Below are positions 13,521 through 64,000 of a DNA stretch of 64,000 bases, piece after piece. Origin of the DNA: Thuidium tamariscinum (lineage: Eukaryota > Streptophyta > Bryopsida > Hypnales > Thuidiaceae). Within the stretch, counting starts at the first letter, position 1. Each line of letters opens with the position of its first letter. The notes below the pieces were generated by a model. The model saw nothing but the letters and a program-made list of their open reading frames with translations. It was not told the origin of the DNA and did no database searches. The stretch is from NCBI GenBank assembly GCA_947034885.2, contig OX344754.2:21284501-21348500 (forward strand), in the 5' to 3' direction. A program made the translations under genes and the position numbers.

Positions 13521-14506
13521 AAGTTTCATTGTCTCTACAAGGGGGTAAAGTGGATTTTGTACAAGTTCCTATAATGTCAAATTTTTATGGAACTTTTTGA
13601 AACATTATTATAAGATAGAGAATCTTATTGGCTTTCTAGAAATGTAGTTTTATTTGAATTAGTGCCTAAAAGCAAGAGTCATATCACAATAAGCTTAGAT
13701 CTAAATTATGTAGGTAAAAACAAATCCACAAAAATTAAATTTTTTTTCTTATAGATTGTAATTTTGTCTTCTTAGAACTTTGATTCATTTTATTTAGATT
13801 GGTGATGCAAAGATTATGAATCATTTTGTTTTGTGGGCAATAATAATAAGATTTTGAAATTGTTTGAGATAGGATTCATTTTTTACTTCAATTTTAATTT
13901 AAAAAAAAGCAGTTTTGTAGTATTAGCATTGATTAATCAAACAATCTCACCATTGGGATTAGAATTTCTATTTCCACATTTCCACCTTAGAGCTATTATT
14001 TTTTTTCCTCTATGATGTACCTTCTACTTAATAATTTAAAATAAAATGACAACCACATTATTTTTCCTACATTCTCAACTTAATTTTGAATGATATATTA
14101 AGTTAAGATCTAAAGTGAAAACTTTTTAAGTTAAGAAAATCAAATCTCTTAAGCTAAAGTAGACCAACCCATTTCCATTTGTAACTCTATTCCACCAACT
14201 AGACTAGCCTATTTCCGTCACTCTAGTTTTGGCCCCATTTCTACCTCCCCCCCCAAATTCCCTTCATTCTATGACAAAATCAAGGATTTTATGACAAGTT
14301 GGAGTAATGTGTCACTATTTAAATAGAAAATATCTAGTTGTTGATTAGGTGGTTATACAATGTTTATAAGTTGTTTATGATCCTAGCCTAAAGGCGGTTT
14401 TGTAATTTAGGATTGTCTACTTCAAAAATTCATAGAAATTACGATTTTGATTGAAAAATTATAATTTCATTTGGGTTTGATTCAAGAAACATGTGCACAC
14501 TTCAAA
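13521..14506. other. AT-rich flank of the giant element
   Basis: No gene. A stretch from about 13,750 to 13,960 (GAACTTTGATTCATT…GATTGGTGATG…) has a diverged direct-orientation copy at about 53,490-53,700, so part of this flank is an old dispersed repeat. Confidence 0.45.
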
Positions 14507-15470
14507 TAAATATGTACCCCTCTTAGAATTGACTCCAATATAGCTAGATTGCAAATAGGCATGTCTACCTTAGTTTGTCATTGTCCCCCAAAACATTTTT
14601 TTTTCACTTTGAATGCAATTATCTTGCAATCTATGTGGTGAAAATTTTTGAAATTTTTTTCACATATTCTCATACTATAATATTACAAGATCCTACCATT
14701 ATATATGAAAAAAATTTCATTTCTAATTTTTTTTGTTTTTTGTACTAAAAATGGCAGTTTTAAGTGTTTTTTTGACAATTGCAACAAAGAGGTCGCCCAC
14801 CCGAGGTCGCCAGAGTCCCCCAAAACATAATTTCTACACTTTGAATGCAATTATCTTGCAATCTGTGTGGTGAAAATTTTTGAAATTTTTTTCACATATT
14901 CTCATACTATAATATTACAAGATCCTACCATTATATATGAAAAAAATTTCATTTCTAATTTTTTTTGTTTTTTGTACTAAAAATGGCAGTTTTAAGTGTT
15001 TTTTTGACAATTGCAACAAAGAGGTCGCCCACCCGCGGTCGCCCCTTGACAAGAGGTCGCCCCTAGACCAGAGGTCGCTCACCCGCGGTCGCCTCTTGAT
15101 AAGAGGTCGCCCCCAAACCAGAGGTCGCCCACCCGAGGTCGCCCCTCGACAAGAGGTCGCCCTCAAAATTGGACACGTGGTCGCCCTATTTTGAAGCGCG
15201 GTCGCCCTTCCCGAAGTCGCCCTCAAAATTAGACATGTGGTCGCCCTATCTTGAAGCGCAGTCGCCCCACCCGAAGTCGCCTACTTAAAGTTCCACGTCA
15301 CTCTGAACAATCTGCCACGTATGCCAAATCCATTTACCGTAGGGTAAATTTTTTTTACCTTACTCGACGGGCTGCGACGGGGTAGCGACATGTTGTCACC
15401 TGCGACACGCGACGTCAGACGTCCTACACGACACCAAAACCCAAAAATATGTCCGACAAGAAAACCCTGA
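14507..15470 (+). repeat. Left terminal inverted repeat, subterminal GGTCGCCC repeats
   Basis: An inverse copy lies at 46,314-47,327. From outside in: TAAATATGTACCCCTCTTAG; a ~232-bp segment present twice in tandem (starting GTCCCCC at 14,583 and 14,815); about 15 copies of GGTCGCCC or close variants between 14,790 and 15,290; a TTTACCGTAGGGTAAA palindrome; a GCGAC-rich block; and the inner boundary GAAAACCCTGA. The GGTCGCCC cluster is in the place where CACTA elements hold TnpA-binding repeats. Confidence 0.85.
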
Positions 15471-46313: not shown

Positions 46314-47327
46314 TCAGGGTTTTCTTGTCGGACATATTTTTGGGTTTTGGTGTCGTGTAGGACGTCTGACGTCGCGTGTCGCAGGTGACAACATGTCGCT
46401 ACCCCGTCGCAGCCCGTCGAGTAAGGTAAAAAAAATTTACCCTACGGTAAATGGATTTGGCATACGTGGCAGATTGTTCAGAGTGACGTGGAACTTTAAG
46501 TAGGCGACTTCGGGTGGGGCGACTGCGCTTCAAGATAGGGCGACCATGTGTCTAAGTTTGAGGGCGACTTCAGGAAGGGCGACCGCGCTTCAAAATAGGG
46601 CGACCACGTGTCCAATTTTGAGGGCGACCTCTTGTCGAGGGGCGACCTCGGGTGGGCGACCTCTGGTTTGGGGGCGACCTCTGGTCTAGGGGCGACCTCT
46701 TGTCAAGGGGCGACCGCGGGTGGGCGACCTCTTTGTTGCAATTGTCAAAAAAACACTTAAAACTGCCATTTTTAGTACAAAAAACAAAAAAAATTAGAAA
46801 TGAAATTTTTTTCATACATAATGGTAGGATCTTGTAATATTATAGTATGAGAATATGTGAAAAAAATTTCAAAAATTTTCACCACACAGATTGCAAGATA
46901 ATTGCATTCAAAGTGTAGAAATTATGTTTTGGGGGACTCTGGCGACCTCGGGTGGGCGACCTCTTGTCTAGGGGCGACCTCGGGTAGGCGACCTCTGGTC
47001 TAGGGGCGACCTCTGGTCAAGGGGCGACCTCGGGTGGGCGACCTCTTTGTTGCAATTGTCAAAAAAACACTTAAAACTGCCATTTTTAGTACAAAAAACA
47101 AAAAAAATTAGAAATGAAATTTTTTTCATATATAATGGTAGGATCTTGTAATATTATAGTATGAGAATATGTGAAAAAAATTTCAAAAATTTTCACCACA
47201 TAGATTTCAAGATAATTGCATTCAAAGTGAAAAAAAAATGTTTTGGGGGACAATGACAAACTAAGGTAGACATGCCTATTTGCAATCTAGCTATATTGGA
47301 GTCAATTCTAAGAGGGGTACATATTTA
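46314..47327 (-). repeat. Right terminal inverted repeat
   Basis: Inverse copy of 14,507-15,470. It begins TCAGGGTTTTCTTGTCGGAC and ends GGGGTACATATTTA. GGGCGACC and variants occur about 20 times. The ~230-bp inner segment is again duplicated, with a longer GGGCGACC block between the two copies than on the left, so the arms differ in repeat number. Its outer end is exactly where the CAGGG hAT end begins. Confidence 0.85.
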
Positions 47328-47345
47328 CAGGGTTGACGAATCGGT
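47328..47345 (+). mobile_element. hAT-type transposon end
   Basis: CAGGGTTGACGAATCGG has the CAGGG start of plant hAT termini and directly abuts the TIR end. The preceding 8 bases, CATATTTA, would be the target duplication. The inverse end followed by CATATTTA was not found in the window, so the partner lies beyond 64 kb or has been lost. Confidence 0.5.
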
Positions 47346-47399
47346 ACGTCCAGGCCAAAATTACGTCCAAAATCCGGACGTCCGGACTTAGTGGACGTA

Positions 47400-47645
47400 G
47401 TGGACATTGTCCTCGGCGACCGGCGGACGGAGAAGCGAACGAAACTGCGGACGAGCAGACGGGCGGACCAAAGTGCGGACGGGCAGACGGGCGGTCGGCC
47501 AGCGGACGGGCGGACCAAAGTGCGGACGCGCGGACGGCACTGCGGACGGGTAGACGGGCGGTCGGCCAGCGGACGGGCAGACCAAAGTGCGGACGGGTGG
47601 ACGGCACTGCGGACGAGAGGACGGATGAGTGGGCGGTCGACAACT
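47400..47645 (+). repeat. GCGGACGG-type array 1
   Basis: A GC-rich cluster of GCGGACGG, GGGCGGACC and GGCGGTCGGCC words in AT-rich DNA, just inside the hAT-type end and ~0.8 kb upstream of the SRA gene. Frames on both strands across it are artefacts of the repeat. Confidence 0.8.
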
Positions 47646-48461
47646 TGTATTTCTGGATTTAGGGTTTTCAAATAACATGTAAGGTAGATGGCTTGAAAAG
47701 CGACCCTTTAAGGGCTGTTCGGTTTAGAGTGGGTTTAGGGTTCCCAAAAATATTTCCCCTTATTTTTCATTTCAAGAACCATTGATGCGAAATCTAAACC
47801 AAATGGTTTCATATATTTCCAATCATTTATAAATTACTTATGTTTTCAAAGAATTCTAGCATAGGTATGTATTTGTGATTCTAGGTCTTGCAAGTTGCAA
47901 AACCCACACAAGTGCAATGTGGAAAAAACCATTGCCTGACCAAAAACAAGCAATGAAGCGCTCAAAAAGTAATACTTCAGATTCCTAAATGTGACCTTTA
48001 CTAAAATTAAGCCCTAAAACCAACATTGTCTTCATATACTTTTAAGTCCAATTGAAAGTGCTATAACTTTTGTACCCAATTTCCAAATTCAACAAAACTT
48101 GTCGGAAAATTTGCACACTCTCTTCTAGTTTGTGTGATAAAATTTTTAGAACAATCTAAGTTACACTGATTACTTGGGAGTCAATCAAAGTTCACAAGTT
48201 CAATTTGAATTCACCAAACTGCATTGAGATGGCTTCAACTTCAGTGGCCTGTATCTTTTTCATCAAATGTTAGTTTTCCAAAAAATGTGTTGGGTTATGT
48301 TTTCCTTGAAGCCTAATTATTGTCGTAAATTTTTTTTATTTTTTTATTTTTTTAAACAAATGGAATTCCATTGCAAAACACAGAGTACAAAGCAGCCAAG
48401 CCAAGCCAAGCCAAGCCAGTTCAATCCATTGCTTCAGTCTGTCTAGCCTTGTTCCATATAG
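47646..48461. other. Spacer before the SRA gene
   Basis: AT-rich. A retroposon-like tail (GGAATTCC stem next to a T-rich run, 48,328-48,380, poly-A on the minus strand) lies near its end. The last part, up to CCTTGTTCCATATAG, resembles an intron end. Confidence 0.4.
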
Positions 48462-49225
48462 ATGGCGACGGTCCTATTGCCACGCGAGATTTTCCTGAGG
48501 GCTGTGTGAGATTGCCGAGGAAAGTCACGAAGAACCCCACAAGGCCACAACCAGCGGGAACTGTAGAGGAAGAGGCAATTTCAGACCCTAATGGAGCGGG
48601 AGCTTATGAGGTAGATGGAGAACTACCAAGAGATTTTGACCAGGTCAGTGTCAGGGATCAATTTTTGCAGCAGCGTGCTCTGTACTCCCGGATCTTACAA
48701 CATTATCAAAAACTCAAGACGAGGGGTCAGTTGCTTGGTAATCGGCCTGACTTGCAGGCAATGAAGCAGATGAATGAAGAAGGAAAATCTAATGAGTTTC
48801 AAAAGTTTGGTCACGTTCCCGGAATCGTAGTCGATGATCAATTTGAATTTTGGTCAGAAATGTTTGCCATTGGGTTGCACCGGCAAGTGCAAGGAGGGAT
48901 TGCATGGGTTGAAGATCGAGGGGAGAAGGTGGCTTGCAGCGTGGTGATCTCAGGTGGTTACCGAGATGATGATGACCATGGGGAGACAGTCAAATACACT
49001 AGCGAGGGTGGAAACGATTACAAAGGTGACAAGCGGTTTTAAGGGGATCCAAAGCCCAAGAAAGGGAACAAAGCGCTTATTAACTCCTACAAACGTGGGG
49101 AAGTTGTTCGTTTGATTAGGGGCCATGATGTGGACGCTGGATGGAACAAAATGTATTCCTATGATGGATTGTACAAGGTGAAGCGTTACAACCTTGAGGT
49201 GGCACGAGATGGTCACAAGGTGTAA
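48462..49225 (+). pseudogene. SUVH-derived SRA-domain (methylcytosine reader) fragment
   Basis: After an acceptor-like ATATAG the frame encodes IATRDFPEGC, matching the RDFPxGC motif upstream of SRA in plant SUVH proteins. A helical linker follows, then an SRA/YDG domain: GHVPGIVVDDQFEF, GLHRQVQGGI, VISGGYRDDDD, YTSEGGN, GDKR, NKALINSYKRG and MYSYDGLYKVKRYN. SRA domains bind methylated cytosine. A TAA at 49040-49042 interrupts the domain in frame and the conserved part continues straight after it, as expected for CAA to TAA. The frame ends after VARDGHKV; GTGTAA there could be a donor. No pre-SET or SET domain follows, and no N-terminal ATG precedes. The upstream GCGGACGG array and hAT end suggest the fragment belongs to a transposon. 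Confidence 0.75.
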
Positions 49226-49423
49226 ACATTGTCACAATTTAATTTTTGTTCATTATTTTTAAATACCATGAAACCAAGAAATCAAAAATCAATAAATCAT
49301 AGTGACGTTTCTAATATGCGCATGAAAACTTGTATTACTTTCAAAGGTTCAAACAAACCATTTCCATTACAAGCTCCATGTACCATGAATATCTAAACAC
49401 CTAAGTCTACATTCCTTGAATTT

Positions 49424-50242
49424 CTAAGGCTTGTAATCAACGTCTCCTCTCACCTCAGCTCCACTACTATGACCTCTTGAATCCCATTCCGAGTCTTCTT
49501 CATTACTTGTGCTATCCATACTATCGGATGAAGACTGTAGAGCTCGCTCTTTTCTTCCGGATACTTGCTTTGATGCAAGCGATCTCTTGCGTCTACCCTT
49601 CTTTTTTTCTTTCACCATGTCTCTACCTCCTAGTGTAGACTTCCCAATCCCTTGTTCAAGACCATTAACCGGTTTCACTTTGCTTTGTGAGAAAGGTTCA
49701 CATACATCAAGGGGGGTTCGACCTAGACTTTGCCGCTTCGATGGTGATTTTGAAAAGGCCTCCAGTATTCTTTTAGTTCTAGCTTTCTTGGACTCTTTCA
49801 TTGCTGGTTGTCTTGCTTTTGATCCGCTTGGAATGATGATCTCATTTGCGCCAAAAGAGAGTGATCGATCCGATGACTTCACCCAAGGTCGACCAAACAT
49901 AGACTCCAATGTCTCATCTTCTTCTGGATCCTTATTTCCGTTGCGTAAACTACCGAGACCACCTAAACTTGCATTGCCGTTTTTGAATAGTATGCGTGGA
50001 GGACCGCTACGTGGGGGTAGGGTTGGATCTCGTACGAGGGGCTTCTTGCCTTTGCCAACATCAAATGACATGGGGCTCCCAGACTCCATCATACCTGCAT
50101 CTACATATGTTGCTACTCCCCGTGCTTTACCTTTCTCGGTACTTGCAAGACAGCTTTTCTTACACGCCAATACTTCAACGAATGCAACACTTATATCACC
50201 AACATTTTTGTCCACCTTCACTCCACTGTCTCCCAAGTCGTT
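49424..50242 (-). pseudogene. In-frame extension of the hAT transposase past a TAG
   Basis: The hAT frame stops with TAG at 50,245-50,243 but continues open in the same frame for another ~270 codons to 49,424. The extension is Ser/Lys-rich with basic patches (KEKKKGRRKRS) and an acidic end (NEEDSEWDSRG). Such a long open run directly in frame is unlikely by chance, so the ancestral protein was probably ~1090 residues and the TAG a CAG-to-TAG change. A second possibility is a very short intron around the TAG. Confidence 0.5.
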
Positions 50243-52693
50243 CTATTTTCCAAGTTCTTCTGCTTCGACCCCTACTGGCGATGGACATTTAGAAATTGGA
50301 ATCAATTCATCCGGGGTCGAAGTCCCACCGATGTTCATCGTTGCCCCATTTCTCTCTTCCATTGCCACATTAGTGTCCCGGCTATGTGCTCGAACATTCT
50401 CACTACTCAATACTGTAGTTCCATCCACAAATTTAGCTTCTGATGGGACATCCTCATCATAGTCGTAATTCTCCTCGTCCTCTTCAAAATTGAAGACATC
50501 CAATGGATTGTCTTGAAAGTCTTCATCATTATGATGAGGGTTTTGGGATGGTTCATCAACCAAACTAGTCACATTGTATTCCGCATCATATTCATCATCA
50601 AATAGGGGATCTCTCTCTTCACCATCGCCATGATCTTCACCACCTTCATCCTCTGACATGGACTCTTCCATATCCACACTCTCGAATTGCTCTTCGTACC
50701 ACTTCTTCTCATCATTTTCTTGAGATGCGGAAAGCACTTTAGTATTGGTGTACACATACACCAAATCTTGTGCTCTCTGTGGCGTCAACTTGTTTCGAGA
50801 TTTGTTGTGAACAAATGAATAGCTACTCCAATTTCGTTCACACGAAGAGGAAGATACCGGTTGGGCCAAAATACGCTTGGCAATTGGAGCAATGAACTTC
50901 CCGCACGTGCCCTCAAAATCCCACCAAGCATGTGCTGACAATTGTTGTTCGTTGGGGTCCAACATTTTGTGGAAAGGGGGTTCCCTATGTCGAAAGGCTA
51001 CAAATTCCTTCACAACAGTGGCATACTGTTCTGTGGTACATACTTTCGTTAAAACACGCTTGCATGCATCCATTGCATCTTGATCATCAGCAAGCTCTTT
51101 GTCGTGAAGAAGATAGGGATTCAACAAAGCCCCTGCATAATGTAGATCTGTCTCTACCATCGCTCGCCGTTCATGAAAGGCTTCTTGTAGATGGATGGCT
51201 AAATCCAAGGACAAACTAAAAGGTGCTTCGTCCAACGACAAAACGTGCTTCTGTATTTTCTTCATGATATGTAGCACCTTCCCCATACATGGCCTTTTTG
51301 CATCCAAATCGCGTAGACCATGTACCACCGGAGCCGATAAATCCTTGAAATTTTGACAACGCCGCCAAAAATGCTTGTTCAAAATGATGTCCTTCACCCT
51401 TCGGCTCACATTGCGAGGATGAGTATTCCGCCCCAATGTTTTCACATATTGTTCCCACTGTGGGTCCGTCACCGTTTGCTGTAACTTCCCCTTCACCTTC
51501 AACATACGGTCCACCATGTTGTAATTGGAAGCAAACCGAGTTTCCACCGCCATCAACAACATGCAGTCCGGCGAGTACCTTCGAAATATTGCAAGAGGCA
51601 TGTGCCTCTTTTTGAAGAATTTCACTACGTTACGGGCATTGCCCACGACCTCCTCAATCCACCGTTCGTTGCCCCAATCTTTCAATAACAAATTCAGGGC
51701 ATGGACCACGCAACCCTGGTAAAATATATGAGGGTACTTCGGAGATATCAAGTTGAATGCGGCTTCATTCACAGGCGCATTATCTGCGCTTATTTGTACT
51801 ATTTTGTGAGGACCCACTTCTTCTATGAATTTTTCCAATATAGAGGCTAAATAGGCGGCATTCTTCTCTTTTCCTGTTGTATCCTCCGATCCTAGGAATT
51901 GCTCGCCCGCAGAAGACACGAGCATTGCATTTACCAAAGGACGATTTGCCGCCGAAGTCCACCCATCAATAGACAATGTTGCTCCAAACTTCCTGATGCT
52001 GTCTTCTGTTCGCTTCTTCATATTCACTTTAATGTCTGCCTTCGCTTGATCAAGCAACTTATGTCGTAATTCATGGTATGACGGTGGGGTATAGGGTTTG
52101 TGAAACTCAACCGTTTTCTTCACCGCTTCTTTAAATGCTGCATTCCGTGCCACCGAAAATGGTATGTTCGCAGCATAAAAAAAATTAGCCCACACTGCAT
52201 GCAATTTCCGTCTACTCGCTTCTTCGAAGCCATCTCCTATCCGCCGCTGCACCAAAGGCCTACTAGTTGATCCTACCCCTGTGTCTCCTTCATCTGATGC
52301 TTGAGTACTGGCAAGTGCTCCAGAAGACACGCGGTTTAGGGTCTCTTTTGGTATTGTACAAGAATCTTCCGGTGTAAGACGTATTGGCGATGTCGAAGGT
52401 CTCTCATTTCCTGCATCATTTTCAACCGTGGCCTCCAATGTCCCGTTTCCACCCAAATTCTCGTTTTCACCTCTTCGTGGGATTATCCCCTTGCATTGAC
52501 GAAATAGCTTCTGAACTTGGGATGTGAGTCGTGGACATAGACTGATTCCTCGATCACGAGACCCCGATGCACCTTCATAACCAAGATGGCTAAACATACG
52601 GCATGTTTTTTTGGCAAACACTAGGTTGCAGGCTTTGCATTGTACCTTCCCAACTGAAGGGGCGCCATACCAAGAAGACCAATCCTTGCTCAT
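50243..52693 (-). CDS. hAT-family transposase
   Basis: 816 residues from ATG at 52693 (MSKDWSSWYG). An N-terminal BED-type zinc finger (VQCKAC…FSHLGYEG, residues ~19-40) binds DNA. A DUF659/RNase H-like core follows, with SIDGWTS (~240, first catalytic Asp), ISADNAPV (~302, second) and GCVVHALNLLLKD (~328). The C-terminal hAT dimerisation region is WWDFEG…SSSCERNWSSYSFVHNKSRN (~590-650), and a strongly acidic tail (~660-760) comes next. The order and length fit plant hAT transposases. The core has no internal stop or frameshift, so the gene may be functional or recently so; the frame continues past its TAG as noted for 49,424-50,242. A GTATAAG box and a GCGGACGG array lie upstream. Confidence 0.9.
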   Translation of the reverse strand: MSKDWSSWYGAPSVGKVQCKACNLVFAKKTCRMFSHLGYEGASGSRDRGISLCPRLTSQVQKLFRQCKGIIPRRGENENLGGNGTLEATVENDAGNERPSTSPIRLTPEDSCTIPKETLNRVSSGALASTQASDEGDTGVGSTSRPLVQRRIGDGFEEASRRKLHAVWANFFYAANIPFSVARNAAFKEAVKKTVEFHKPYTPPSYHELRHKLLDQAKADIKVNMKKRTEDSIRKFGATLSIDGWTSAANRPLVNAMLVSSAGEQFLGSEDTTGKEKNAAYLASILEKFIEEVGPHKIVQISADNAPVNEAAFNLISPKYPHIFYQGCVVHALNLLLKDWGNERWIEEVVGNARNVVKFFKKRHMPLAIFRRYSPDCMLLMAVETRFASNYNMVDRMLKVKGKLQQTVTDPQWEQYVKTLGRNTHPRNVSRRVKDIILNKHFWRRCQNFKDLSAPVVHGLRDLDAKRPCMGKVLHIMKKIQKHVLSLDEAPFSLSLDLAIHLQEAFHERRAMVETDLHYAGALLNPYLLHDKELADDQDAMDACKRVLTKVCTTEQYATVVKEFVAFRHREPPFHKMLDPNEQQLSAHAWWDFEGTCGKFIAPIAKRILAQPVSSSSCERNWSSYSFVHNKSRNKLTPQRAQDLVYVYTNTKVLSASQENDEKKWYEEQFESVDMEESMSEDEGGEDHGDGEERDPLFDDEYDAEYNVTSLVDEPSQNPHHNDEDFQDNPLDVFNFEEDEENYDYDEDVPSEAKFVDGTTVLSSENVRAHSRDTNVAMEERNGATMNIGGTSTPDELIPISKCPSPVGVEAEELGK

Positions 52694-52950
52694 AATGATG
52701 AATTTTAAGTGCGTCTTTGGAACTTCAAATTCCGAGTGTAACCACAAAAAGGGTGAAGATCTCCGCAGGAATAAAAATCGTTAATAAAGTAACCGATATA
52801 GTTTGAAAGAAGCCTTGGAAACCAAAGCCCCCCTGACCACTGAACTATGCATTACCAAGCAAGGGACACAACCGAAATTGCAGCGCCTAGCCCTTGGAAA
52901 TCTTAGCGTTCAGCTTTACAGGAGTGCTTGCGAATGACAATTTCTGGAAA

Positions 52951-52957
52951 CTTATAC
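52951..52957 (-). promoter_or_regulatory. GTATAAG box upstream of the hAT gene
   Basis: The minus strand reads GGAGTATAAGTTTCC about 260 bases before the transposase ATG and just downstream of the GCGGACGG array. The same heptamer stands near the arrays of the RING and kinase genes. Confidence 0.45.
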
Positions 52958-53004
52958 TCCTTAGTTCTAAGGTTGCTCTTCGTGACCGTTGCAACGGACG
53001 GGAG

Positions 53005-53215
53005 ACAATCCCGATTGACACTGCAGACGGAACAGCGGACCGAACTGCGGACGACCCGACAGGGTACTCCGATCGGCGGACGGCGAGCGGTCGCGGACGG
53101 ACCCCCCTCGGATGCCCACCAAGAGGCGGACGGGTCTAGCGGACAGCCACCACGAGGCGGACGGCCCCCGATCGGACGGCCCCACGAGGCGGACGGCCTA
53201 CATCGGACGGCCTAC
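53005..53215 (+). repeat. GCGGACGG-type array 2
   Basis: GC-rich cluster of GCGGACGG, GATCGGACGGCC and CACGAGGCGGACGG words, directly upstream of the hAT transposase gene. Read in that gene's direction the words are CCGTCCGC. Confidence 0.8.
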
Positions 53216-54683
53216 ATCCCAAAGGACCAAGAGTGCACTTGGGGGACTTCAAGAATTTGGGCAGTTACTTGTCACTTCAATTTTGAACGAATTCGCTAGA
53301 AATTTTCACATAACTCAGATAGAAAACTTGATTAGCTCTGTGGGAATATTATTCTTTTCCAATTGGTGACCGTGAGCAAAAGTTATGCCATCTTCAATAT
53401 CATTTTCATGTCGCCGGGAAGAAAAAAATCATCAAAAACTTCAGAATTAAAAAAATAATTTTTTTTTCTAATTGATTTTATTTTTGTCTACAAGACTACA
53501 AGTGAAGCTTTGATTCATTCAATTTGGATTAGTGATGTGAAAGTCATGAACAATCTTGTTTTTTAGACAATGTAAGCATGTTTTTTTTAAAAAAAATTTA
53601 GGATTCACTTGTGAATGCAATTTCCACAATTTTCAATAAAAAATTGTTGGGCAAGGTTGTTTTTGCTTGCCAAAACAATTTCACCATTCAGATTATAGTG
53701 TTTCAATTCAATGTATGAGATCTTTGCAATTTACTTTCTCTTTCAATCTTGGACCTACATGTACTTGACAATTTTTTAAAGAATGAAAAAACACACTTTT
53801 GTTGCTGAATTTGTTTTCCTGAGCTGTTACCTCAATTTCTCAATAGAAAAAAGTTTAAATTCAAGGTCTGTAGTGCAAAAAAATTACAGAAATGGAGGAC
53901 AAAGTCATTTGCATTTGCAAACTCAAGTTCAAAAAAACATTGTTTTCCAACTTTGAATGCTCATATTAGGGTCAAACTTCATGAAATTTCTACCACATTG
54001 GATACAACTTCTGTGAAAATCTGAAAGAAAAACCCAAAAAAAAACCCATTCATAATGAGTTGTTCGATATTCCTATGTTCCAAAAAACCCAGTTGGGTCT
54101 TTAAGGGCTTTCAATTATACTTAAATTGTTATTACAAATTTACAACTGGACTTCAAACATCTTAAACTTTGTTTTAGAGACAACAAATCACAAAAGACTT
54201 TCTTGTAGACTAAATTGAACTTGGTTTCTTTAAACTCTTCAAGATCATGGTAATTTCAAAAGCATTTGGAAAAAAATATGGAATGATCAAAAATGAATTT
54301 ATGAAGTTCTACAGTGAACATAGTAATTTTATTTTTTTTCCTGCATGGCTCCTACCTTCATTCACATATCCCATTCTCTTCTAGAATTAAAATTAGCCTT
54401 TTGCATCATCAAACAAAAACATCTTCATATATGATCAATTGATCATATGATGGTACATGTCAGACTTCAACTAAAATAAAACTCTTGAATATATATACAC
54501 ATTTGCAACTCTGTATTTTACACTTATTTTTGTATTGATAAAAAAAATACAAACCATACTATAGCTACTATGAATGATTTGCAATGAATCTCCGAAAGAT
54601 TCAAAGTTAAAACAAGTCCTCCGTAATATAATATCTAACAGCTAATAAAAGATCCACTTCTACTAAATCTTTTCACGAATACC
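53216..54683. other. AT-rich spacer
   Basis: No gene. About 53,490-53,700 is a diverged direct-orientation copy of 13,750-13,960. Confidence 0.45.
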
Positions 54684-55118
54684 CTACGGTGTAACACGAG
54701 ATGGACCCTCTCTATCCCTAAGTCTTGCACTTGTACGGCGAGTGTGAGGACCGGGGCTTCCGTCGCCAGTGGACCCTCTCGAAGCCACTGCCATATCAAC
54801 AGCACTGAATTGTCTTTTTGTTTTTGGAGAGAAGTCATCCTCATCTTCCACCCTCCGCTTATTCTTTCGCTTCTGAGGCAGATCCACTTCATGTGCCTTT
54901 AATGCTTCCAAGGCATCATCTACTGAAGCTACCATTAAGTTCAGTGTTACATTGACATCTCCAACGGAAAACTAGTGCGGGCCGGGGCCATCTCCTCCCA
55001 CTAAAAATTTTCGAAAAGACATTATGGCCTCGCTCATCCTCCTGTCAAAAGCCCCTGCCACTTCCACAATTGACTGTGAGGAGTTGGAATCCCCGTCTAA
55101 CTCTACAAGAGCTCGAAC
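54684..55118 (-). pseudogene. In-frame extension of the RING protein past two TAG codons
   Basis: The RING gene's frame continues after its TAG (55,121-55,119) through ~48 codons to a second TAG (54,974-54,972) and then ~95 more codons to a final TAG at 54,686-54,684. The last part is basic (KRKNKRRVEDEDDFSPKTKR) and ends Arg-rich. All three segments are in one frame, so the original protein was probably ~1100 residues and both internal TAG codons may derive from CAG. Confidence 0.45.
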
Positions 55119-58001
55119 CTACGCAGCTTCTTCCAACTTTGATAGGAAGAGGGCCCTCCCTATCAATGTGTGATTGTACGTCCCGTATCGCTCTTGCAAC
55201 TCTTTTGTACGCTCCACATCCACCCAATTGCCATCTGGTCCTTTGTTCACTTCCTTCTCTGGAAATCGAAAGAACTTGTGATGGTCTATGCTCCAATGCC
55301 CACCCATGCCGCGACAAAACAATTCGCGAGCTTCGGGATCTTCAATACCCCTTGCTCGCAATTCCACGTGTCGATCTTGGGTCATCCACACAAAGGGATC
55401 TAGCGGCACCATTGCCTCTTCGTACAACCCATGCTTCTCTTCCAATGAATCCCACGTGAGAGGTTTTCCCCAATGCATATAATTTTGGAAGTAAAACGGG
55501 GCTTGATCAAGTGGAAGGGTCCATCGATTGTATTCGTGACTAGGGGGCATACATTCCAAGGTCCCAACCATTTCGTAAAACCTTGAACTCAAAGGAGAAC
55601 GACACTCCGGACAAACCGAGCGAATGAGTGAGGCTTTGATTATGCACGTCACATGGAAAGTGTGACGACATTGGCCCATAGTTAGGGCTCCCTCGGGACC
55701 AAATGGACCTTGACAAATGCTGCATTTACCTTCCAAGATCCCTCGAGAAGTGTGAGAAGCATGCACCACTGTCTTCTCATTGTCCTTGATGTGTGCCGAA
55801 AGAGTGTTGTACGGAACCCAACCTTCTTCTACCTCCAAGGCCCAATTGATGTGGGGTGATTCTTCTTTCTTTGTGTGATTCAACCGCTCGAACATCGCGT
55901 CCATGTCTTCCCAACATGTGATTTCTGTAGTCCCCTTCGGATGTGTTTCAAACCTCTTCCTCATACTCATCAGTGAAGATTCTACTATTTGTTGTTGCTC
56001 ATCCGATTTTCCAGCCAATTTGAGAAGCCCTTTCATTGCTCGCGAAACTACAGTTGGTTTGTCTTCTAGTTTTTGAATCCATGCCAACCATCGATCGTCT
56101 TTGGTACTCTTTGGAAGGGAGTCATCCAATCGAAGAACATGCTCTAGTCGTTGCAATTCACTCTGCAAAGACGCGTTTTCTTCGGTGAGCTTCTCCACTT
56201 TCTGCTTCAATTCATCAACTTCATGGCATTCTGTTTGAATGGGAGCATCTTGAAATGAAGTTTTGCGATTTTCAATGGCCACTAGAGGTGTCACTTCATG
56301 TATCTTTTTTTTCTCATCGCCACTAAAATGCTTAGCTCCATCTCCTTCCTTAGCTTCGGTGAACTCACCTTTTTTGATCACGTCCTTCAATTTCTCAACT
56401 TCTGACTCCAAATCTTTAATACGATCACTTTGCCATTTCACAGTTGCAACTTGAAATTGTGCCGTATTCTTAGAAGTCCTCAATTGCTCTACCATTTCGT
56501 TTGAGGTTCCCTTCAATTCTTTCTGCAAGGCCAGCAGTTTTGTATTCTCTTCCAAGAAGGCCACCAATTGGCGCTTGTCCTCGAAGCGCTCGTCCAAAAA
56601 CGGTAACAAGGACTCGGTGAACTTATGAAACGTCAATGCACTTGCCAACAATTCAGGTGACAATTTTGCAAACTCCTGTGCCACCTCTGTAAGTTGCGGA
56701 GATACTTCAGTTACAAATCGACCTAGAGTTGCCAATGTCACTTGGATTTCAGCAACAGTTGCCCAACTGTGACGATTGGCTTCACCTTGGGTTGCAATGC
56801 TTGTGGTGGCCTCACTTGTCTCTTTTGACCGGTTTAGGTCAAGAAGGTGAGACCCAAACATAACTGAACCCTCCAACAACCGTTCCAGCTCTGCGGCATT
56901 CGGCATGTTCGAAAGAGCCTCCAATTGTGATGTGTTCAATGTGGACAAATGCGGGTATTGGCTGGGGATGACTTCAACATCGATGACTACTTCTTTTCCT
57001 TTTCCCTGAGACGCCTCTCCATTTTTTTTGGCGATAGCTGCTTCAATTCTGGCGCTCTGTACGGGGCTGGAAACGCTCGGTTTGCTCAAACATGATGGTT
57101 TAGGGTTTAGCCCGAAGATGTCGAGAGCATTACTGTCAATAATATCATGAATTGTAGCATTGGCCTCAGCAACTTCTCCCTCGGCTACCTCTTCCGTATC
57201 TTCAGTACCTTCACATTGAGCCAATGGGGGCCCACCTTCTTTCTTCCCACTCTGAATATCTTCAAGAATGCCCTGTTCAGCCACCGTTGTAACATTTGGT
57301 GTGCATATTAAATCTGTAGGAGGAGTTGCAAACACTTCTCCTTCCACACCTTCACCTTCAGTATCTTCCATTGTCCTCAAAGTGTGTGTAGGCTCACTAG
57401 GCTGCAAGCGTGGTCCATCACTTGGTACCTCTGAGACTTTTGTTTCAATTTTTCTAGTATTTTTTAATACTCTTTTGGGCTTCGGTACCTCACTTGGCCC
57501 TCCTTGAGGATTGTACAAATCGAGAATGTCTTTTCCATTCATTTCTTGTACAAATGGAGTTTGTGCTGTCGTCGGATACGTGCTCCAATCCACCTTGCGT
57601 TCCAATATCAATTCTGCATACACCATAGAAGCCAAGCTGTAGTTTATGTACCCTTTACTCATTGCTTTCTTTCCAAAGAGGGCCCGCCAAACCTCCAAAG
57701 CGCGATGCACAAAATGCGCGTTGTTGCAGTTGGTGGGTTTGCAAAAAAATCCACGTGTATGAAGTTCATGGGCCTCCCTAGGCCACAACTTGTCAATGTG
57801 ATACATTTTCACGTATTTTTTGCACATTTTTGAAGACCAATACGGTGCTGCCTCATCCTCCCATCCGTTTTCCGCTTTGATGTTTGGGTCATCCAAAATC
57901 TCATAATGTAATTCGTGACTGGCGCCCTTTGGCTTATGCCTTTGATTGTCACCACCCGCTGGATTTATTCCCCCACCACGTTCTTCACCCTCACTTGCCA
58001 T
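55119..58001 (-). CDS. Transposon-associated coiled-coil RING-H2 protein
   Basis: 960 residues from ATG at 58001 (MASEGEERGGG); the frame is also open ~40 codons upstream without an ATG. The N-terminal ~150 residues form a conserved-looking globular region (GWEDEAAPYWSSKMCKKYV…, two Cys in FFCKPTNC) of no family known to me. A long acidic, low-complexity section follows, then coiled coils (~475-625, e.g. LESEVEKLKDV and DELKQKVEKL), then a RING-H2 finger at ~757-800: CSIC-x14-CRHTFHVTC-x10-CPEC. RING-H2 fingers usually give E3 ubiquitin ligase activity. A GCGGACGG array with GTATAAG lies ~165 bp upstream, the same layout as its neighbours. It may be an accessory protein of the same element as the hAT transposase; that is inference. 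Confidence 0.75.
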   Translation of the reverse strand: MASEGEERGGGINPAGGDNQRHKPKGASHELHYEILDDPNIKAENGWEDEAAPYWSSKMCKKYVKMYHIDKLWPREAHELHTRGFFCKPTNCNNAHFVHRALEVWRALFGKKAMSKGYINYSLASMVYAELILERKVDWSTYPTTAQTPFVQEMNGKDILDLYNPQGGPSEVPKPKRVLKNTRKIETKVSEVPSDGPRLQPSEPTHTLRTMEDTEGEGVEGEVFATPPTDLICTPNVTTVAEQGILEDIQSGKKEGGPPLAQCEGTEDTEEVAEGEVAEANATIHDIIDSNALDIFGLNPKPSCLSKPSVSSPVQSARIEAAIAKKNGEASQGKGKEVVIDVEVIPSQYPHLSTLNTSQLEALSNMPNAAELERLLEGSVMFGSHLLDLNRSKETSEATTSIATQGEANRHSWATVAEIQVTLATLGRFVTEVSPQLTEVAQEFAKLSPELLASALTFHKFTESLLPFLDERFEDKRQLVAFLEENTKLLALQKELKGTSNEMVEQLRTSKNTAQFQVATVKWQSDRIKDLESEVEKLKDVIKKGEFTEAKEGDGAKHFSGDEKKKIHEVTPLVAIENRKTSFQDAPIQTECHEVDELKQKVEKLTEENASLQSELQRLEHVLRLDDSLPKSTKDDRWLAWIQKLEDKPTVVSRAMKGLLKLAGKSDEQQQIVESSLMSMRKRFETHPKGTTEITCWEDMDAMFERLNHTKKEESPHINWALEVEEGWVPYNTLSAHIKDNEKTVVHASHTSRGILEGKCSICQGPFGPEGALTMGQCRHTFHVTCIIKASLIRSVCPECRSPLSSRFYEMVGTLECMPPSHEYNRWTLPLDQAPFYFQNYMHWGKPLTWDSLEEKHGLYEEAMVPLDPFVWMTQDRHVELRARGIEDPEARELFCRGMGGHWSIDHHKFFRFPEKEVNKGPDGNWVDVERTKELQERYGTYNHTLIGRALFLSKLEEAA

Positions 58002-58145
58002 GACTTTGAGTCCACCACTGTCGGGAAATGAAAAATCAGTTTGATCACCCAACTCTCCACCTCGTAGGATACAACTGGCACAATGAAGCAACAGTAGAAC
58101 ATCCGACAAGGTTGAACCCAATAATGGAGAGGAGTGAAAGAAATC

Positions 58146-58440
58146 CGTCCGCCGTTCGCCCTTATACCCGTCCGACCCCGAACCTAACTGGGGTCGGCAC
58201 CGACCGTCCGCCCGAATGACGCGAAGCGGCCACGAGGGCGGACAGTCCGCCGCCGTCCGCTCTCGACCCTAGAAGCGCCGCCGAAGCTCCCGTCCGCACG
58301 CCCAAACCTAGTCCGCCGTCCGCAGTAGCGGTCCTCCCGTCCGCAGTTGCCGTCCGCAGGTGCGGAGGCGCCGTGCGCCGTCCGCGCGTCCGCCGGTGCC
58401 GTCCGCGAGTCCGCAGGTGCCGTCCGCACGTCCGATGGCT
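58146..58440 (-). repeat. GCGGACGG-type array 3
   Basis: GC-rich cluster of CCGTCCGC words on the + strand, hence GCGGACGG in the direction of the RING gene, whose start lies ~145 bp away. Opposite frames across it are artefacts. Confidence 0.8.
58161..58167 (-). promoter_or_regulatory. GTATAAG box of the RING gene
   Basis: The minus strand reads GGACGGGTATAAGGGCG, at the gene-proximal edge of the array, about 165 bases before the ATG. Sequence and placement match the box in the array before the kinase gene. Confidence 0.5.
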
Positions 58441-58663
58441 CTGTAAATTCGCGTTTAAGCCTGGGATTCTCCTGTGCGTGTGTCCTCGGATTCGAAGTCC
58501 GCCAGCAAAGCAAACAGCGCACAATGAGGAATTCACTAATTCAGGATAGGGATCCAATGTTCAAGTTATTTAAATTTAGTTCTTGTAAAATTATAGAAGG
58601 AATTTAAAGCAAGCAATGGTAATATGTGCAATTTTTTTATATTTCTGAGACTTTCTCAAGGTC
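58441..58663. other. Spacer, nothing recognised
   Basis: Short AT-rich spacer between the array and the telomere-like block; no gene seen. Confidence 0.4.
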
Positions 58664-58718
58664 AAGGGTTTAGGGTTTAGGGTTTAGGGTTCGTAGGGTT
58701 CGTAGGGTTTAGGGTTTA
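58664..58718 (+). repeat. Interstitial telomere-like repeats
   Basis: Consecutive GGGTTTA units interrupted by two GGGTTCGTA variants. TTTAGGG is the common plant telomere unit; this ~50-bp block is internal and flanked by transposon DNA. Confidence 0.8.
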
Positions 58719-60009
58719 TTGTTTAGTGGCAATTTTCATATTTCATGACATTCTATTGAAAAAGAAATTTGTATGCCAAATATCATCATTATGTAAATGA
58801 TTAAAGTGAATATCCAATAATGTAGAAGACAGACACAACAAGTCAACAACACATATATGAATTTGCTTTCGAATGCAGTACTTTTATCTTGTCATGTAGT
58901 CATGTACTCATGTGACTAATCAAAATAGAATGATTTTGAACTTTACATGTACATATTGAGCAACTCTTAGTCTATTCTAACTAAATTTTCATCGTTATAG
59001 GGAATCCCTTCAAGCATTTTATTAATACTTTTTGTTTTTGTTTTTTACCAAGCTAACTCTAAAAATGAGCAATAAGCAAAATAAATAAAATTTCAAGGAT
59101 TAGTTGGAACTATAGGATTTACAACAGCCAATATTTTACTACGTAGTCCACAATGTCCTCTAACTTATGTTTGACAAAAGACATTGTTGGATAGAAGGTA
59201 ATTCGAAGTCATTCATGTTTGACTTCACTAGCTCTACAATACACATGTTTAGCCACTGTTCGTACAATTGTACCCATAGGGTCTCATATAAATACATAAT
59301 ATAGAGCATATATGAAATTTTTTGGAAATTTTACTTGCCCATGCAAAGTTTTGGCAAATTTGTTTCACTATGACTACTGGCACTCATGCCCCCAAGGGAT
59401 GTAAAACACATTAGTTATATCCAAACAAACCTCCTAAAGTATTTGTACCCCAACCCCATATATACCAACCCTATACACTTCAATCTTATTTGACGCAATC
59501 ATGTTTGTCTGTTTGTCAAAACCTTAATTACTGAGGCACCTTAAACCGCTCACCTATTTAACCGGATGTCCTTCACCGTGTAAGCTCTTGTCTTACCTGA
59601 CTCCATCCACCAAGAGCCAAAGACCCCATCTATCGTGATGTCTAGGTCTTATCTATATTACACTATCCATTTGTTCACAAATTGAAAGTCCTTAGCTCAA
59701 ACATTGGAATTTGAACTGTAGATTTTTGCTTTCAAAAATTGGTATTAATGGATCAAATATCCAATACAGCATTAATGTATGAAAAGGTAATTATATATAT
59801 GTTTTTATTTTTAAAAAAAGAGAATGGTGACAATAGTGGTATAGGTAATATACTAATATGCAAACGGAATCTCAAATTCAAAGTCTACAACTTTGATTTG
59901 TACATCATCAATTCTAAAATAATTTTCCAAATAATATTGGATGATGATTTTTTTCCAATCTTCAATTTTTGAGAAGATTATAAATGTTTATATAAGGGAT
60001 TACTAGAAA
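58719..60009. other. AT-rich spacer
   Basis: No supported gene; only short frames. Confidence 0.4.
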
Positions 60010-60012
60010 ATA

Positions 60013-60450
60013 ATGAGGAGTTTGATGCAGATACGAAATTTGTGGCACATTTCTTGGACGTTTCTCGAGGTGGTAAAATTCAGTTCCAAGACTCCACAGG
60101 AGTTGAATCCATGCCAACCATTGATCATCTTTGGTACTCTTCAAATTTCATGTGGTGGTTTGAAAATGCACCAAGCAATTATAGTGTACTCTTCCAATTT
60201 GGACTATATTGGAAGGTAGCCTCACATGTCCAAGCTGTGGCAAAGTATTCTTGTAATTCCTGGTAGCACAGATTCTTGTGAGAGGGCATTTTCTACTCAA
60301 AATTATATTGAGTCTAATTTACGTTCTAGTTTAGTATTGGAGACTTTGGAAGCAGAAATTCGAGTTGCAGTGGCAAGAATTCCTATAGAAGCCATTGACT
60401 TTGAACAAGTTTGGGTGAAATGGTGTGGCATGAAAGGTCGCGGCTTGTAG
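60013..60450 (+). pseudogene. 3' remnant of a second hAT transposase
   Basis: The frame from 60,226 encodes SILVIPGSTDSCERAFS followed by NLRSSLVLETLEAEIRVAV, the hAT C-terminal dimerisation motif (S-x3-CERxFS, then R-x2-L). Just upstream, in another frame, is FMWWFENAPSNY, matching the WW motif that precedes it, so at least one frameshift separates them. It is not closely similar to the transposase at 50.2-52.7 kb. A 39-bp piece of the RING gene sequence lies at 60,103-60,141. Confidence 0.65.
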
Positions 60451-61819
60451 GTTTGTTTTCTTTTGTACGCTATGGTATATAGTGACTCTTTTCATGTGCA
60501 ACAAAAAATTCATATTGGTATTACAAATTTTTCAAAATTGATAATATTCAAACTCACCAAAAAAAATGTATGGAAAATGAGGGACACCCAAAAATTGGAC
60601 AAGGGTGTCCTTCTAACACCCAAAATTTTGACCACGGTGTCCCCTAGAAATTTGGCTAGGGTGTCAAATTTATGCCCTAACTGTGAGCTTGTAAGCCTCA
60701 AAGATGATGCACCTGTAATGTAGTTGTTTACACTATAGAAACCTTGTATAATAAGAGTGTATTTATATTATAGAGCCCTATATTGTAGGTATTTTTACTA
60801 TAAACACCTTCTTAGGTGGAAGTATAACTACTTATATACATATTAGGAGTTCACATGCTCGTGTTCATGCTCATTTACTAGCATTGTTGCACTATTTTAT
60901 GTTCAAGTTTTCATGAATTAGAATCCCATCCACATCAAAAGAAAGTGAAATAAGTTAGAGTCAATCACTCCATCCATGAACTTCGCACTAATTTATGTTC
61001 AAATTTTTATAAGTTGCTTCAATTTTTTTTTCGTTGTTTAGGGGTTATAGATTGAAATTTGTAGACATAATAATTTTTGAATTGACATCTTCAAAATAAA
61101 CATAATAAAGGACTAATGAGACCACATTGTTTTATTTTACACATGAAAACAGAAGTGTTCATAATGGATTTCTATATTGATATTTTTTTTCAAACATATT
61201 CTACGCATAGTCATACAATTTAAAGGTCAATTTTTTTAAGTAATAAATACGATTACACTACAATTTTTTCCAAATTCTAAAAATAAAATATTATATATAA
61301 GAAACTAAGATACTAGGAATCAAAAAAGCATATCTGTTTTTATCATAACAAATGTTTTATTCACAATTCTAAAACCTGAATATGGTATACAAACAGGTTG
61401 TGCAATCAGTAAATGAGAGGAGGTCCTAAAAGTGCTCAAGACCGAAGACCACCCACTTCTTCAAATGTAAGTTATTTAAACATGTTGTTTTCCTGTACAC
61501 TTCAGCAATGTGCAAACAATGTACATTTTAGGAGGTGGGCGATTTTAGGTCCCCATGCCATTTCAACTCTAAAAATTCATAACTAATTTGACATAGTTCC
61601 ACAAAGTTCCAAAGAACTTGGTTTACATGCTAATTGCACATATCTTTCAAGGACAATTGACCATTGAAGGATTAAAAGTAAATAATAGGTAGGTAAAACT
61701 TCTTGAGGTAGTTCTAAAAAATATTCTCTTTCAAGACAAGTGGAATTGATGTGTACCCCATTTGGTTTTGTATTTTTTAAAGCTTCGTAGAATTAGTTAT
61801 GAAATTTTGAAGTTGGAAT
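60451..61819. other. AT-rich spacer
   Basis: No supported gene. Repeated GGTGTC- and CACC-containing phrases occur near 60,590-60,665 without clear structure. Confidence 0.4.
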
Positions 61820-62345
61820 GCCCCGGGGCCGTCCGATCGGACGGCCACAGTGATCGGACGGCCCCGAGGACGTCGAGGCGGACAACTCCGACGAGGTGAG
61901 GCGGACGGCCGCGATCGGACGGCCACTGCGATCGGACGGCCCCAAGGACGGCCCCAAGGACGGCCCCGAGGACGACGAGGCGGACGGCCATGACGAGGAC
62001 GACGCGGATGGCCCCGGTCGGACGGCCAGTGCGATCGGACGGCCCTAACGAGGCAATGCGGACGGCCCCGATCGGACGGCCAGCGCGATCGGACGGGCCC
62101 GATGACGACGAGGCGGACGGCCCCGGTCGGACGGCTAGTGCGATCGGACGGCTAGTGCGATCGGACGGCTAGTGCGATCGGACGGCCCTAACGAGGCGAC
62201 GCGGACGGCCCCGATCGGACGGCCAGCGCGATCGGACGGCCCCGACGAGGCGCGGCGGACGGATCGGACGGCCCCGACGAGGTTGCGGACGGGTCAGTCC
62301 GTCCGCAAGGTATAAGATAGGCGGACGGCCCGTCCGCAACCGCAT
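61820..62345 (+). repeat. GCGGACGG-type array 4 with GATCGGACGGCC palindromes
   Basis: The longest of the four arrays: about 25 copies of CGGACGGCC, many as GCGATCGGACGGCC. It opens with the perfect 20-bp palindrome GGCCGTCCGATCGGACGGCC (about 61,828-61,847). It ends ~190 bp before the kinase ATG. Confidence 0.85.
62310..62316 (+). promoter_or_regulatory. GTATAAG box of the kinase-like gene
   Basis: CCGCAAGGTATAAGATAGGC lies inside the gene-proximal end of the array, ~220 bases before the ATG, flanked on both sides by GCGGACGG-type words. Confidence 0.5.
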
Positions 62346-62532
62346 TCTTATCTTCCCCCTTGTGTTTCACAAGAGAGAGCGGAGAGCTTGGTGGTTAATC
62401 CTCCATTGGCTCCTTTCTAAGGGAAGTTAGGAGTGGGATTTAGGGCCAACTTGTTGCCCTTTTTTTGTATATCTTTTGTGCATTGTGCTTGAAATCAAGA
62501 GTTTTTAAACTCTTATCATTGATTTGATCACG

Positions 62533-64000
62533 ATGCCGAAAGGAAAGAAGGTAGCAAAGGCAAAACCAGTAGCGCTAGACATTGAGGACATGCCTTCGGA
62601 TGATTGCAAGGCATATGTCATCCGTATCATAGTGCAGTTTTATGAGGAGGAGAGCACTGCATCCCTTGATACCAAGTACATCCGATACGAAGAGGAGTGC
62701 ATTGAGAAGTTCAAATCGGATATGACGAAGAGGATGACGGATGCTCTCTTTGTTCCAGGATGGATTCATGAAACGGAGAAGAGAGGCTTCCAAAGGTTTC
62801 TGCAGAACAGGGTGCAAGATTCATTGTGGAATGTCAAAGTGGTATTGACAAAGTACGGGAAGGAACATCGGGTGGATGATCCCACATTTGAAGAAGTCAT
62901 TTTGAAGGCGGACTTGTTTGTACAACGATGTGCTCCGTTTACAAAGAATGCTAGGAAACGGAAGGGACAAGGATCATTGGGGTGGTGGAACACGGATGAA
63001 GGAGCTCTAGAATTGCAACGTGGGCGGCGGCATCTTGTGGCATTGCCCATTACCGCAAGGGTGATTCCACAAGACAGTACGGTCTTGAAGGGGGGCTATG
63101 CAACAATACAGAGGGTGCGAATTGAAGGATGTGCTGAGATACCTGCCTCTTGGGAGTTTGCAGCGAAGGTATCGCATCAACAACGCTTGAGGCCTCAACT
63201 CGCAAAGTTGGAACACCAGAACGAGTCAATGGCAGTGCGGATTCCACATGACGGAGTTATACGATTCACAGCAGTCCATGGAACAAACAATGAAGGGTAC
63301 ATGTATTGGTGGAATGGTGGAACGTTGAGGCAAATGTTGAACATGGATAGGGACTATCCAGATGACATTCACATTCGATTGGCTTATTCCAAGCCATCAC
63401 CCGAAGAGGTGAATCGAGCATTCTTTCTAGCTCGATGGAGAAGGAAACGAACGGAGCTCGCATGGGCATTGGTGCACATTTTGCATGCGGTGCATCAAGC
63501 GGGGCATCTACACAACGATCTCTCGCCGGACAACATCATGTTTCACTTTCCGGATGATGAGTCACGTGTATATATTGGGGTTTGCGATTGGGGCATGACT
63601 ACCGTACATAGTGATCCACCCAAATCCTTGTACACTTTCACATCTGAAAGTGAGAAGAAAGAAGCTTTGCAAAGAAGATGGTGGGTGGATCCGTCTATTG
63701 TGTATGTGCATAAGAAAGATGCAGATGTGGAAACGATTCCACATTTATCACGTAAATCAGAAGAGTTTGCGGTTGGTAAACTAGCTCAACAGATCAACAA
63801 GCAATGCATGTCCAAGGAGTACGCGGCGCTCCATCGTGATAATAGAGGACATACGAAGTGGAGCCACCATGAGTTAGGACTTGTGTTTCATAATTATTTG
63901 GAACTTCTGTGTTCTACAGATGTAGAGAGGGCAGTAAGTTTGACTAAAATCGTCCAACGATTTACTGGCCCAGGTTACAATTGGCCTATCCCAGATGAAC
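62533..64000 (+). CDS. Protein-kinase-like gene, partial at window end
   Basis: Open from ATG 62533 (MPKGKKVAKAKP) to the window end, at least 489 codons, with no intron or stop seen. Residues 1-180 form an unfamiliar N-terminal domain with a basic start. The kinase-like fold then shows a Gly-loop-like LKGGYATIQRVRI (187-199), Lys212 in WEFAAKV, a hinge region YWWNGGTLRQML, the catalytic loop HLHNDLSPDNIMFHF (HND at 327-329, Asn334), DWG at 352-354 in place of DFG, and FAVGKLAQQI as a probable helix F. The catalytic Lys, Asp, Asn and metal-binding Asp are present, so activity is possible despite HND for HRD and DWG for DFG. A GCGGACGG array with GTATAAG lies directly upstream, as for the RING gene. 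It could be a transposon accessory gene or a host gene beside repeats. The 3' end is outside the window. Confidence 0.75.
   Translation, partial: MPKGKKVAKAKPVALDIEDMPSDDCKAYVIRIIVQFYEEESTASLDTKYIRYEEECIEKFKSDMTKRMTDALFVPGWIHETEKRGFQRFLQNRVQDSLWNVKVVLTKYGKEHRVDDPTFEEVILKADLFVQRCAPFTKNARKRKGQGSLGWWNTDEGALELQRGRRHLVALPITARVIPQDSTVLKGGYATIQRVRIEGCAEIPASWEFAAKVSHQQRLRPQLAKLEHQNESMAVRIPHDGVIRFTAVHGTNNEGYMYWWNGGTLRQMLNMDRDYPDDIHIRLAYSKPSPEEVNRAFFLARWRRKRTELAWALVHILHAVHQAGHLHNDLSPDNIMFHFPDDESRVYIGVCDWGMTTVHSDPPKSLYTFTSESEKKEALQRRWWVDPSIVYVHKKDADVETIPHLSRKSEEFAVGKLAQQINKQCMSKEYAALHRDNRGHTKWSHHELGLVFHNYLELLCSTDVERAVSLTKIVQRFTGPGYNWPIPDE

Follow-up and report, generated by a model that had tools for sequence, protein, structure and literature searches.

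The window analyzed here, a 64-kb stretch of the genome of the moss Thuidium tamariscinum (contig OX344754.2, C6:21284501-21348500), holds the left three quarters of a giant hAT transposon of 22,597 bp, which runs from window position 47,328 to 69,924 (C6:21331828-21354424, no strand assigned; 47,328-64,000 lie within the window). The element moves, or recently moved, as one unit that comprises genes for a hAT transposase, a RING-H2 protein, a kinase-like protein, and a fourth protein, together with a dead SRA fragment. CGG-rich arrays stand at both ends, in inverted orientation, and before the four genes, where they adjoin a TATA-like GTATAAG. We consider it probable (about 0.7) that an Ac-like hAT transposon has here expanded to 22.6 kb, with a transposase that would read the CGG arrays as promoters as well as ends and with RING and kinase proteins that would be working accessories.

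Boundaries and insertion site of the element

The first-pass annotation of this DNA had placed a hAT-type end at 47,328 and had raised the possibility that one giant hAT element encloses the genes to its right. The end is real. A CACTA-type element (Pfam: Transposase_21, DUF4218, DUF4216) lies at 14.5-47.3 kb between inverted repeats, the arms of which (14507-14811 and 47327-47023) are 99.7% identical over 305 bp. The right arm stops exactly at 47,327, where the terminal inverted repeat CAGGGTTGACG of the hAT element starts (47328-47338, plus strand), and the left arm continues into ...CATATTTATTTGAAGTG. Because the right repeat is broken at 47,327 and the left arm is intact, an insertion with an 8-bp duplication was predicted, with a far end reading CATATTTA-TTTGAAGTG. 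No right end was found inside the 64-kb window. In the genome sequence beyond it, the predicted junction is present at 69,924, 22,597 bp from the left end, as the earlier annotation had anticipated in proposing to look for an inverted end followed by CATATTTA past 64 kb. The right end reads ...CGTCATCCCTG, then CATATTTATTTGAAGTG; when inverted it begins CAGGGATGACG and is an imperfect inverse of the left end, with 10 of the first 11 bases in agreement. The element has the form CAGGG...CCCTG. Its 8-bp target duplication, CATATTTA, has the left copy at 47320-47327 (plus strand) and the right copy directly after 69,924.

To the right of 69,924, the DNA is 99.9-100% identical to the left arm over 7.7 kb in the outward direction, which indicates that one arm of a very long inverted repeat received the hAT element and that the other arm represents the empty site. 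The empty target site, CATATTTATTTGAAGTG, is kept at 14498-14514 (minus strand). The region that received the insertion, window 6789-47327 and the DNA beyond 69,924, could be a CACTA-type element or an inverted duplication; its near-identical arms extend ∼7.7 kb outside 14,514, and it carries GGCGACC arrays.

Copies of the element in the genome

The genome searched comprises 363 Mb in 19 contigs. Five copies of 22.38-22.60 kb were read, the window copy and four fetched from other sites, and all four of the latter have both ends and the same genes, with a perfect 8-bp duplication in three. Including the window copy, perfect duplications therefore flank four of the five (CATATTTA, GTGGACCT, CCAGGCTG, and GTTGGAAA; lengths 22,383-22,597 bp). 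The fifth has both ends and the flanks AAGGCAAC and ATGCTTCT, with no duplication. When 20 further left ends were fetched, 16 started with CAGGG and had 16 different 8-bp flanks; the other four, read by eye, start with TAGGG (two) or CAAGG (two), also with different flanks. At least 40 matches each were found in the genome for the hAT gene (98-100% identity), the RING gene (97-100%), the kinase gene (98-100%), and the SRA fragment (98-100%), and 42 left-end matches were listed (75-100%). Among the matches listed, the left end, RING, and kinase stand in the expected order around 26 of 40 hAT matches; the other 14 are without one or more of these partners, and at least one of the 14 (C10) has the left end in its fetched sequence. 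The hAT-RING gap is 2.21-2.42 kb in 34 of 35 cases, again among the matches listed. The amplification of this element to dozens of nearly identical copies is recent.

These copies bear on two other accounts of the block. In one, several separately bounded elements would be nested, each gene having its own array as its ends. One candidate, 54209-58580, encloses the RING gene together with its array and is bounded by an imperfect 8-bp repeat and 11-bp ends, and plain shuffles give fewer candidate pairs than the real sequence, most of the real pairs being poly-T or array matches. Against local shuffles with low-complexity pairs dropped, however, this candidate is at chance (18 of 40 shuffles reach it) and no separately bounded element stood out; such elements, had they been seen, were what the earlier annotation had named as counting against a single element. 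Across the five copies, each at a different site, content and order are the same and there is one pair of ends, and 34 of the 35 hAT-RING gaps just described stay within about 0.2 kb. For the copies read, the shared ends and duplications refute nesting, and we regard it as very improbable. The other account, a block of host genes that share promoters beside an unrelated hAT end, is more improbable still. Among the kinase relatives, two carry annotations as proteins of Ceratodon purpureus, which would fit host genes, yet the block occurs in dozens of copies, each at its own site, and four of the five read have 8-bp duplications, which refutes this account.

CGG arrays and the GTATAAG module

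The motif GCGGACGG has 32 matches in the 64-kb window, compared with 0.25 expected. The four densest CGG/CCG clusters of the window, with 29-74 triplets each (the next cluster has 13), all lie to the right of 47,328 and show a strand asymmetry of CGG over CCG: 31:1 in the left-end, subterminal array (47342-47636, plus strand), 23:6 in the array upstream of the hAT gene (52986-53210, plus strand), 36:6 in that of the RING promoter (58145-58434, minus strand), and 54:19 in that of the kinase promoter (61823-62382, plus strand). The inverted partner of the left-end array is the right-end array at 69,453-69,831; the two align best when inverted (score 82 versus 61), such that the subterminal repeats at both ends that are a feature of hAT elements are present here as CGG arrays. 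For all six array pairs in the window, similarity is above Markov shuffles (0-5 of 200 shuffles reach it). Five arrays of CGG and GCGGACGG, at the left end, hAT gene, RING gene, kinase gene, and right end, occupy corresponding places in all five copies.

The three GTATAAG sites named by the first-pass annotation were confirmed. Each is on the sense strand of its gene: 52951-52957 (minus), 264 bp before the hAT start codon; 58161-58167 (minus), about 165 bp before the RING start codon and with array units on both sides; and 62310-62316 (plus), 223 bp before the kinase start codon. The right-end array precedes the fourth gene and holds a fourth sense GTATAAG, 221 bp before the ATG. A sense GTATAAG thus precedes 4/4 genes in 5/5 copies, 165-264 bp from the start codons, and two further GTATAAG occur elsewhere in the element. 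As a word in the 64-kb window GTATAAG is not enriched (5 found, 5.3 expected); the chance that all three named sites fall within 300 bp of starts is ∼2e-6, a post hoc figure. The combination GTATAAG-N0-20-GGCGGACGG has 169 matches in the genome, versus 0 for the reversed control. The same annotation had suggested listing the genes next to other arrays; at all three places sampled outside the listed copies, which are a sample and no survey, the module stands before a relative of one of the same genes, namely RING (92%), kinase (89%), and the fourth gene (56%). Arrays beside random sequence, which that annotation had named as counting against its proposal, were not seen at these places. It had also listed the SRA, hAT, RING, and kinase genes alike as having an upstream array; the array of the SRA piece is the left-end one, ∼700-800 bp off and without GTATAAG.

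The ratio of observed to expected CpG is 1.2-1.4 in the arrays versus 0.26-0.79 in the genes and spacers of the element (0.26-0.35 in spacers). The retention of CpG in the arrays may indicate unmethylated DNA.

Genes of the element

The hAT transposase gene (49424-52693, minus strand, 1,089 codons) has matches to DUF659 and Dimer_Tnp_hAT (Pfam), the latter being the C-terminal dimerization region (E 5.7e-10), and a conserved SSGAEVKGDSDY-type tail. The window copy has one in-frame stop, at codon 817. Residues D243, D304, and E619, which we take to be the catalytic acidic residues of the transposase, are invariant in 16 aligned hAT sequences; in the same sequences, the candidate residues of an N-terminal BED-type zinc finger are C19 and C22, nearly invariant, and H36 and C53, invariant.

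The coiled-coil RING-H2 gene (54684-58001, minus strand, 1105 codons) matches Pfam above the cut-off. Its window copy is interrupted in frame at codons 961 and 1010 by stops, and the zinc ligands C763, C766, C781, H783, H786, C789, C800, and C803 (C-C-C-H-H-C-C-C) are invariant in 17 aligned sequences, the window sequence included. The predicted structure of this protein was a poor model (predicted local distance difference test score 52.6) and was not used. A 39-bp piece of the gene (56073-56111) is repeated at 60103-60141 (95%), beside a remnant of another hAT transposase C-terminus (60241-60447, plus strand; E 0.0067, below the Pfam cut-off).

The kinase-like gene (62533-64000 in the window, ending at 64,020; plus strand, 495 codons) has an extra N-terminal helical domain and conserved Lys/Glu/HND/DWG residues. 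Its Pfam match (E 8e-6) is below the Pfam cut-off; the predicted fold is that of a kinase. Presumably K212, E231, D329, N334, and D352 are the catalytic Lys, Glu, Asp, Asn, and DFG-type Asp; all five are invariant in 23 aligned sequences, the window sequence included. The fourth gene (68,206-69,282, minus strand, 359 codons) lies beyond the window, and its protein is 39% identical over 124 amino acids to the N-terminal domain of the RING protein. Between the kinase and fourth genes, at element positions 17188-17842 and 19949-20499 (versus other copies), there is a diverged (∼73%) internal inverted repeat.

A SUVH-like SRA fragment (48356-49225, plus strand; SAD_SRA in Pfam), which resembles SUVH9/5/6, had been suggested in the first-pass annotation to read methylcytosine as part of a plausible anti-silencing or host-manipulating cargo. 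This part of the proposal was not borne out. No ATG precedes the domain, and a scan of two SRA-region pieces gave neither a pre-SET nor a SET domain. In all four copies without gaps here, the domain is split by an in-frame TAA (49040-49042 in the window); in the remaining copy (C6b) the fragment itself is gapped. A role as anti-silencing cargo was rejected because this stop is common to the copies. In two copies there is an indel in the repeat upstream of the SRA frame, and the frame itself is not shifted. The SRA piece is a broken passenger and no working methylcytosine reader.

Relatives of the element proteins

Searches found 19 RING, 68 kinase, and 49 hAT protein relatives. In three cases RING and hAT matches are on contigs of exactly the same size (17649, 8444, and 7321). 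For contigs of at least 5 kb, 0.02 such coincidences are expected, and three or more were never reached in 20,000 jitters. A further shared size, 2127, was ignored as too short for both genes. Kinase and hAT matches share one contig size, 27639, which is reached in 1.7% of jitters, and no contig size is shared between RING and kinase matches. Three more contigs thus appear to pair the transposase with RING and one with the kinase, these contigs being known by size only.

The genome-contig search confirmed no contig for the kinase and gave three with hAT matches (L001, L002, and L003). The diverged 6.3-kb contig L001 (CADCWO010000266.1) was read. It has the 3' half of a hAT gene at 32-2083, GCGGACGG at 2437-2444 and, three bases on, GTATAAAA at 2448, which places the motif beside a TATA box, and a RING-type protein that starts with an ATG at 2828 (E 4e-28 against the RING-family profile; BLASTP E 2e-19 for the N-terminal domain). 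A CGG array with two exact GCGGACGG follows at 6145-6291. The gene order, hAT then RING, is the reverse of that in the window. L001 is filed under a cyanobacterial metagenome-assembled genome yet bears plant-type hAT and RING genes, and contamination or misbinning is likely. L002 and L003 have no match to the listed RING or kinase proteins and no GCGGACGG, and no relatives were confirmed in viral contigs. Across four linked pairs, RING and hAT divergence correlate (r 0.84) and the true pairing is the best of 24 permutations, which is weak evidence because n = 4. From L001 and the contigs with shared sizes, we infer that the association of hAT and RING is old. One kinase relative, P0054 (KC19_VG055000 in Ceratodon purpureus), represents 126 member sequences, and the copy number may be high in that species too.

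Proposed role of the arrays and accessory proteins

The ends of the element recall Ac/Ds of maize. Ac makes 8-bp duplications, as this element does, and both have short CAGGG ends (here 11 bp and imperfect) and a hAT transposase with a dimerization domain. Ac has one gene and a stated length of 4.6 kb, whereas this element has four genes and 22.6 kb, with CGG arrays also before internal genes. Elements of the hAT superfamily are usually regarded as having a single gene. The VANDAL family, to which VANDAL21 of Arabidopsis belongs, is unlike this element in not being a hAT. Ac has CGG-containing subterminal repeats as well, AAACGG, which its transposase binds (PMC3260210); many hAT-derived N-terminal DNA-binding domains prefer CGG, with motif matches in hAT subterminal regions (PMC8097297); and VANDAL21 is likewise a multi-gene DNA transposon with tandem repeats of short motifs in non-coding and upstream regions, which are bound by VANC proteins that remove silencing from their own transposons (PMC5735166, PMC10398659). 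The CGG-binding proteins of the second study are mostly host proteins; here, a transposase in its own element would be the putative binder.

By analogy with these three sets of findings, the CGG arrays are most likely bound by the transposase, which would use them as ends of the transposon and as promoter elements, perhaps to counter silencing. A putative N-terminal zinc-binding domain would contact the CGG units. Bound at the ends, the transposase would assemble the cut-and-paste complex, in the manner of Ac transposase on AAACGG; bound to the internal arrays, it would control the own promoters of the element and may keep them unmethylated, so that transposition and the accessory genes would be switched together. 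The RING and kinase proteins, judged by their conserved residues, could be a working ubiquitin ligase and kinase that modify the transposase or host silencing factors.

Several observations weigh against this proposal. Many copies are damaged: among the five read, open frames number 2/5 for hAT, 1/5 for RING, 4/5 for the kinase, and 5/5 for the fourth gene, and one copy has all four open. Among two-state variable codons, counted as synonymous:non-synonymous, hAT (eight copies; 8:25, ratio 0.86, P 0.42) and the kinase (six copies; 7:13, ratio 0.46-0.50, P 0.11) give no significant sign of selection, and the fourth gene points in the opposite direction (five copies; 1:14, ratio 3.77, P 0.14). 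zf-BED has no Pfam match in the window transposase, and protein P0112 reaches only E 0.23. The CGG strand of the hAT-gene array is antisense to the gene, unlike in the RING and kinase promoters. Recent array growth explains the retained CpG equally well, and CpG transitions among array variants (6/37) are neither in excess nor in deficit, with no decay signal. The L001 array shows no clear excess of similarity to the window arrays (43, 14, 83, and 99 of 200 shuffles reach it).

Much of this would suit another reading of the same hAT element, in which the arrays are ordinary GC-rich promoter and end repeats, spread perhaps through the copying of one promoter, and the RING, kinase, and fourth genes were captured and do not serve transposition. 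The SRA fragment demonstrates that captured passengers do occur and die, neutrality could account for the way in which hAT, the kinase, and the fourth gene differ from copy to copy, and RING is open in just the one copy. However, RING is kept with hAT in relatives that are only ∼35% identical, with RING cysteines conserved (three of these four pairings rest on contig size), the kinase residues are invariant across the 23 aligned sequences, and the GTATAAG and GCGGACGG module is kept in the fourth-gene relative at 56% identity. The proposal of working accessories also draws on RING, in which six copies give 17:31 (pairwise ratio 0.48, P 0.017), a deficit of amino-acid changes relative to neutrality. 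We consider mere capture unlikely and favor an Ac-like element with working accessories.

A more ambitious version of this proposal, which we offer tentatively and hold to be possible but doubtful, is a self-regulating multi-protein hAT whose transposase would be the transcription and anti-silencing factor of its own regulon. The same array would serve as end and as promoter of the transposase, a dedicated ubiquitin ligase, a dedicated kinase, and an adaptor, in a virus-like circuit that would have persisted in moss lineages and was recently amplified to dozens of nearly identical 22.6-kb copies. The fourth protein is proposed as the adaptor because it shares the N-terminal domain of the RING protein.

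Pack-TYPE transposons and Starships are also mobile elements with extra genes. Pack-TYPE elements are non-autonomous, whereas this element encodes its own hAT transposase, and Starships are fungal and use tyrosine recombinases. Among the open-access papers listed, none was seen to describe a hAT element that carries RING and kinase genes; subscription papers and Repbase were outside the search. That the four genes of a hAT share one type of promoter, have stayed together over deep divergence, and were recently multiplied suggests that DNA transposons of plants can build multi-protein programs, possibly against methylation silencing. It also suggests that, among the multicopy kinase and RING genes annotated in mosses, some belong to transposons.

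Elsewhere in the window, a 162-bp tandem repeat (3.8 copies at 97%) occupies 9615-10236, within a 296-codon open frame at 9522-10412.

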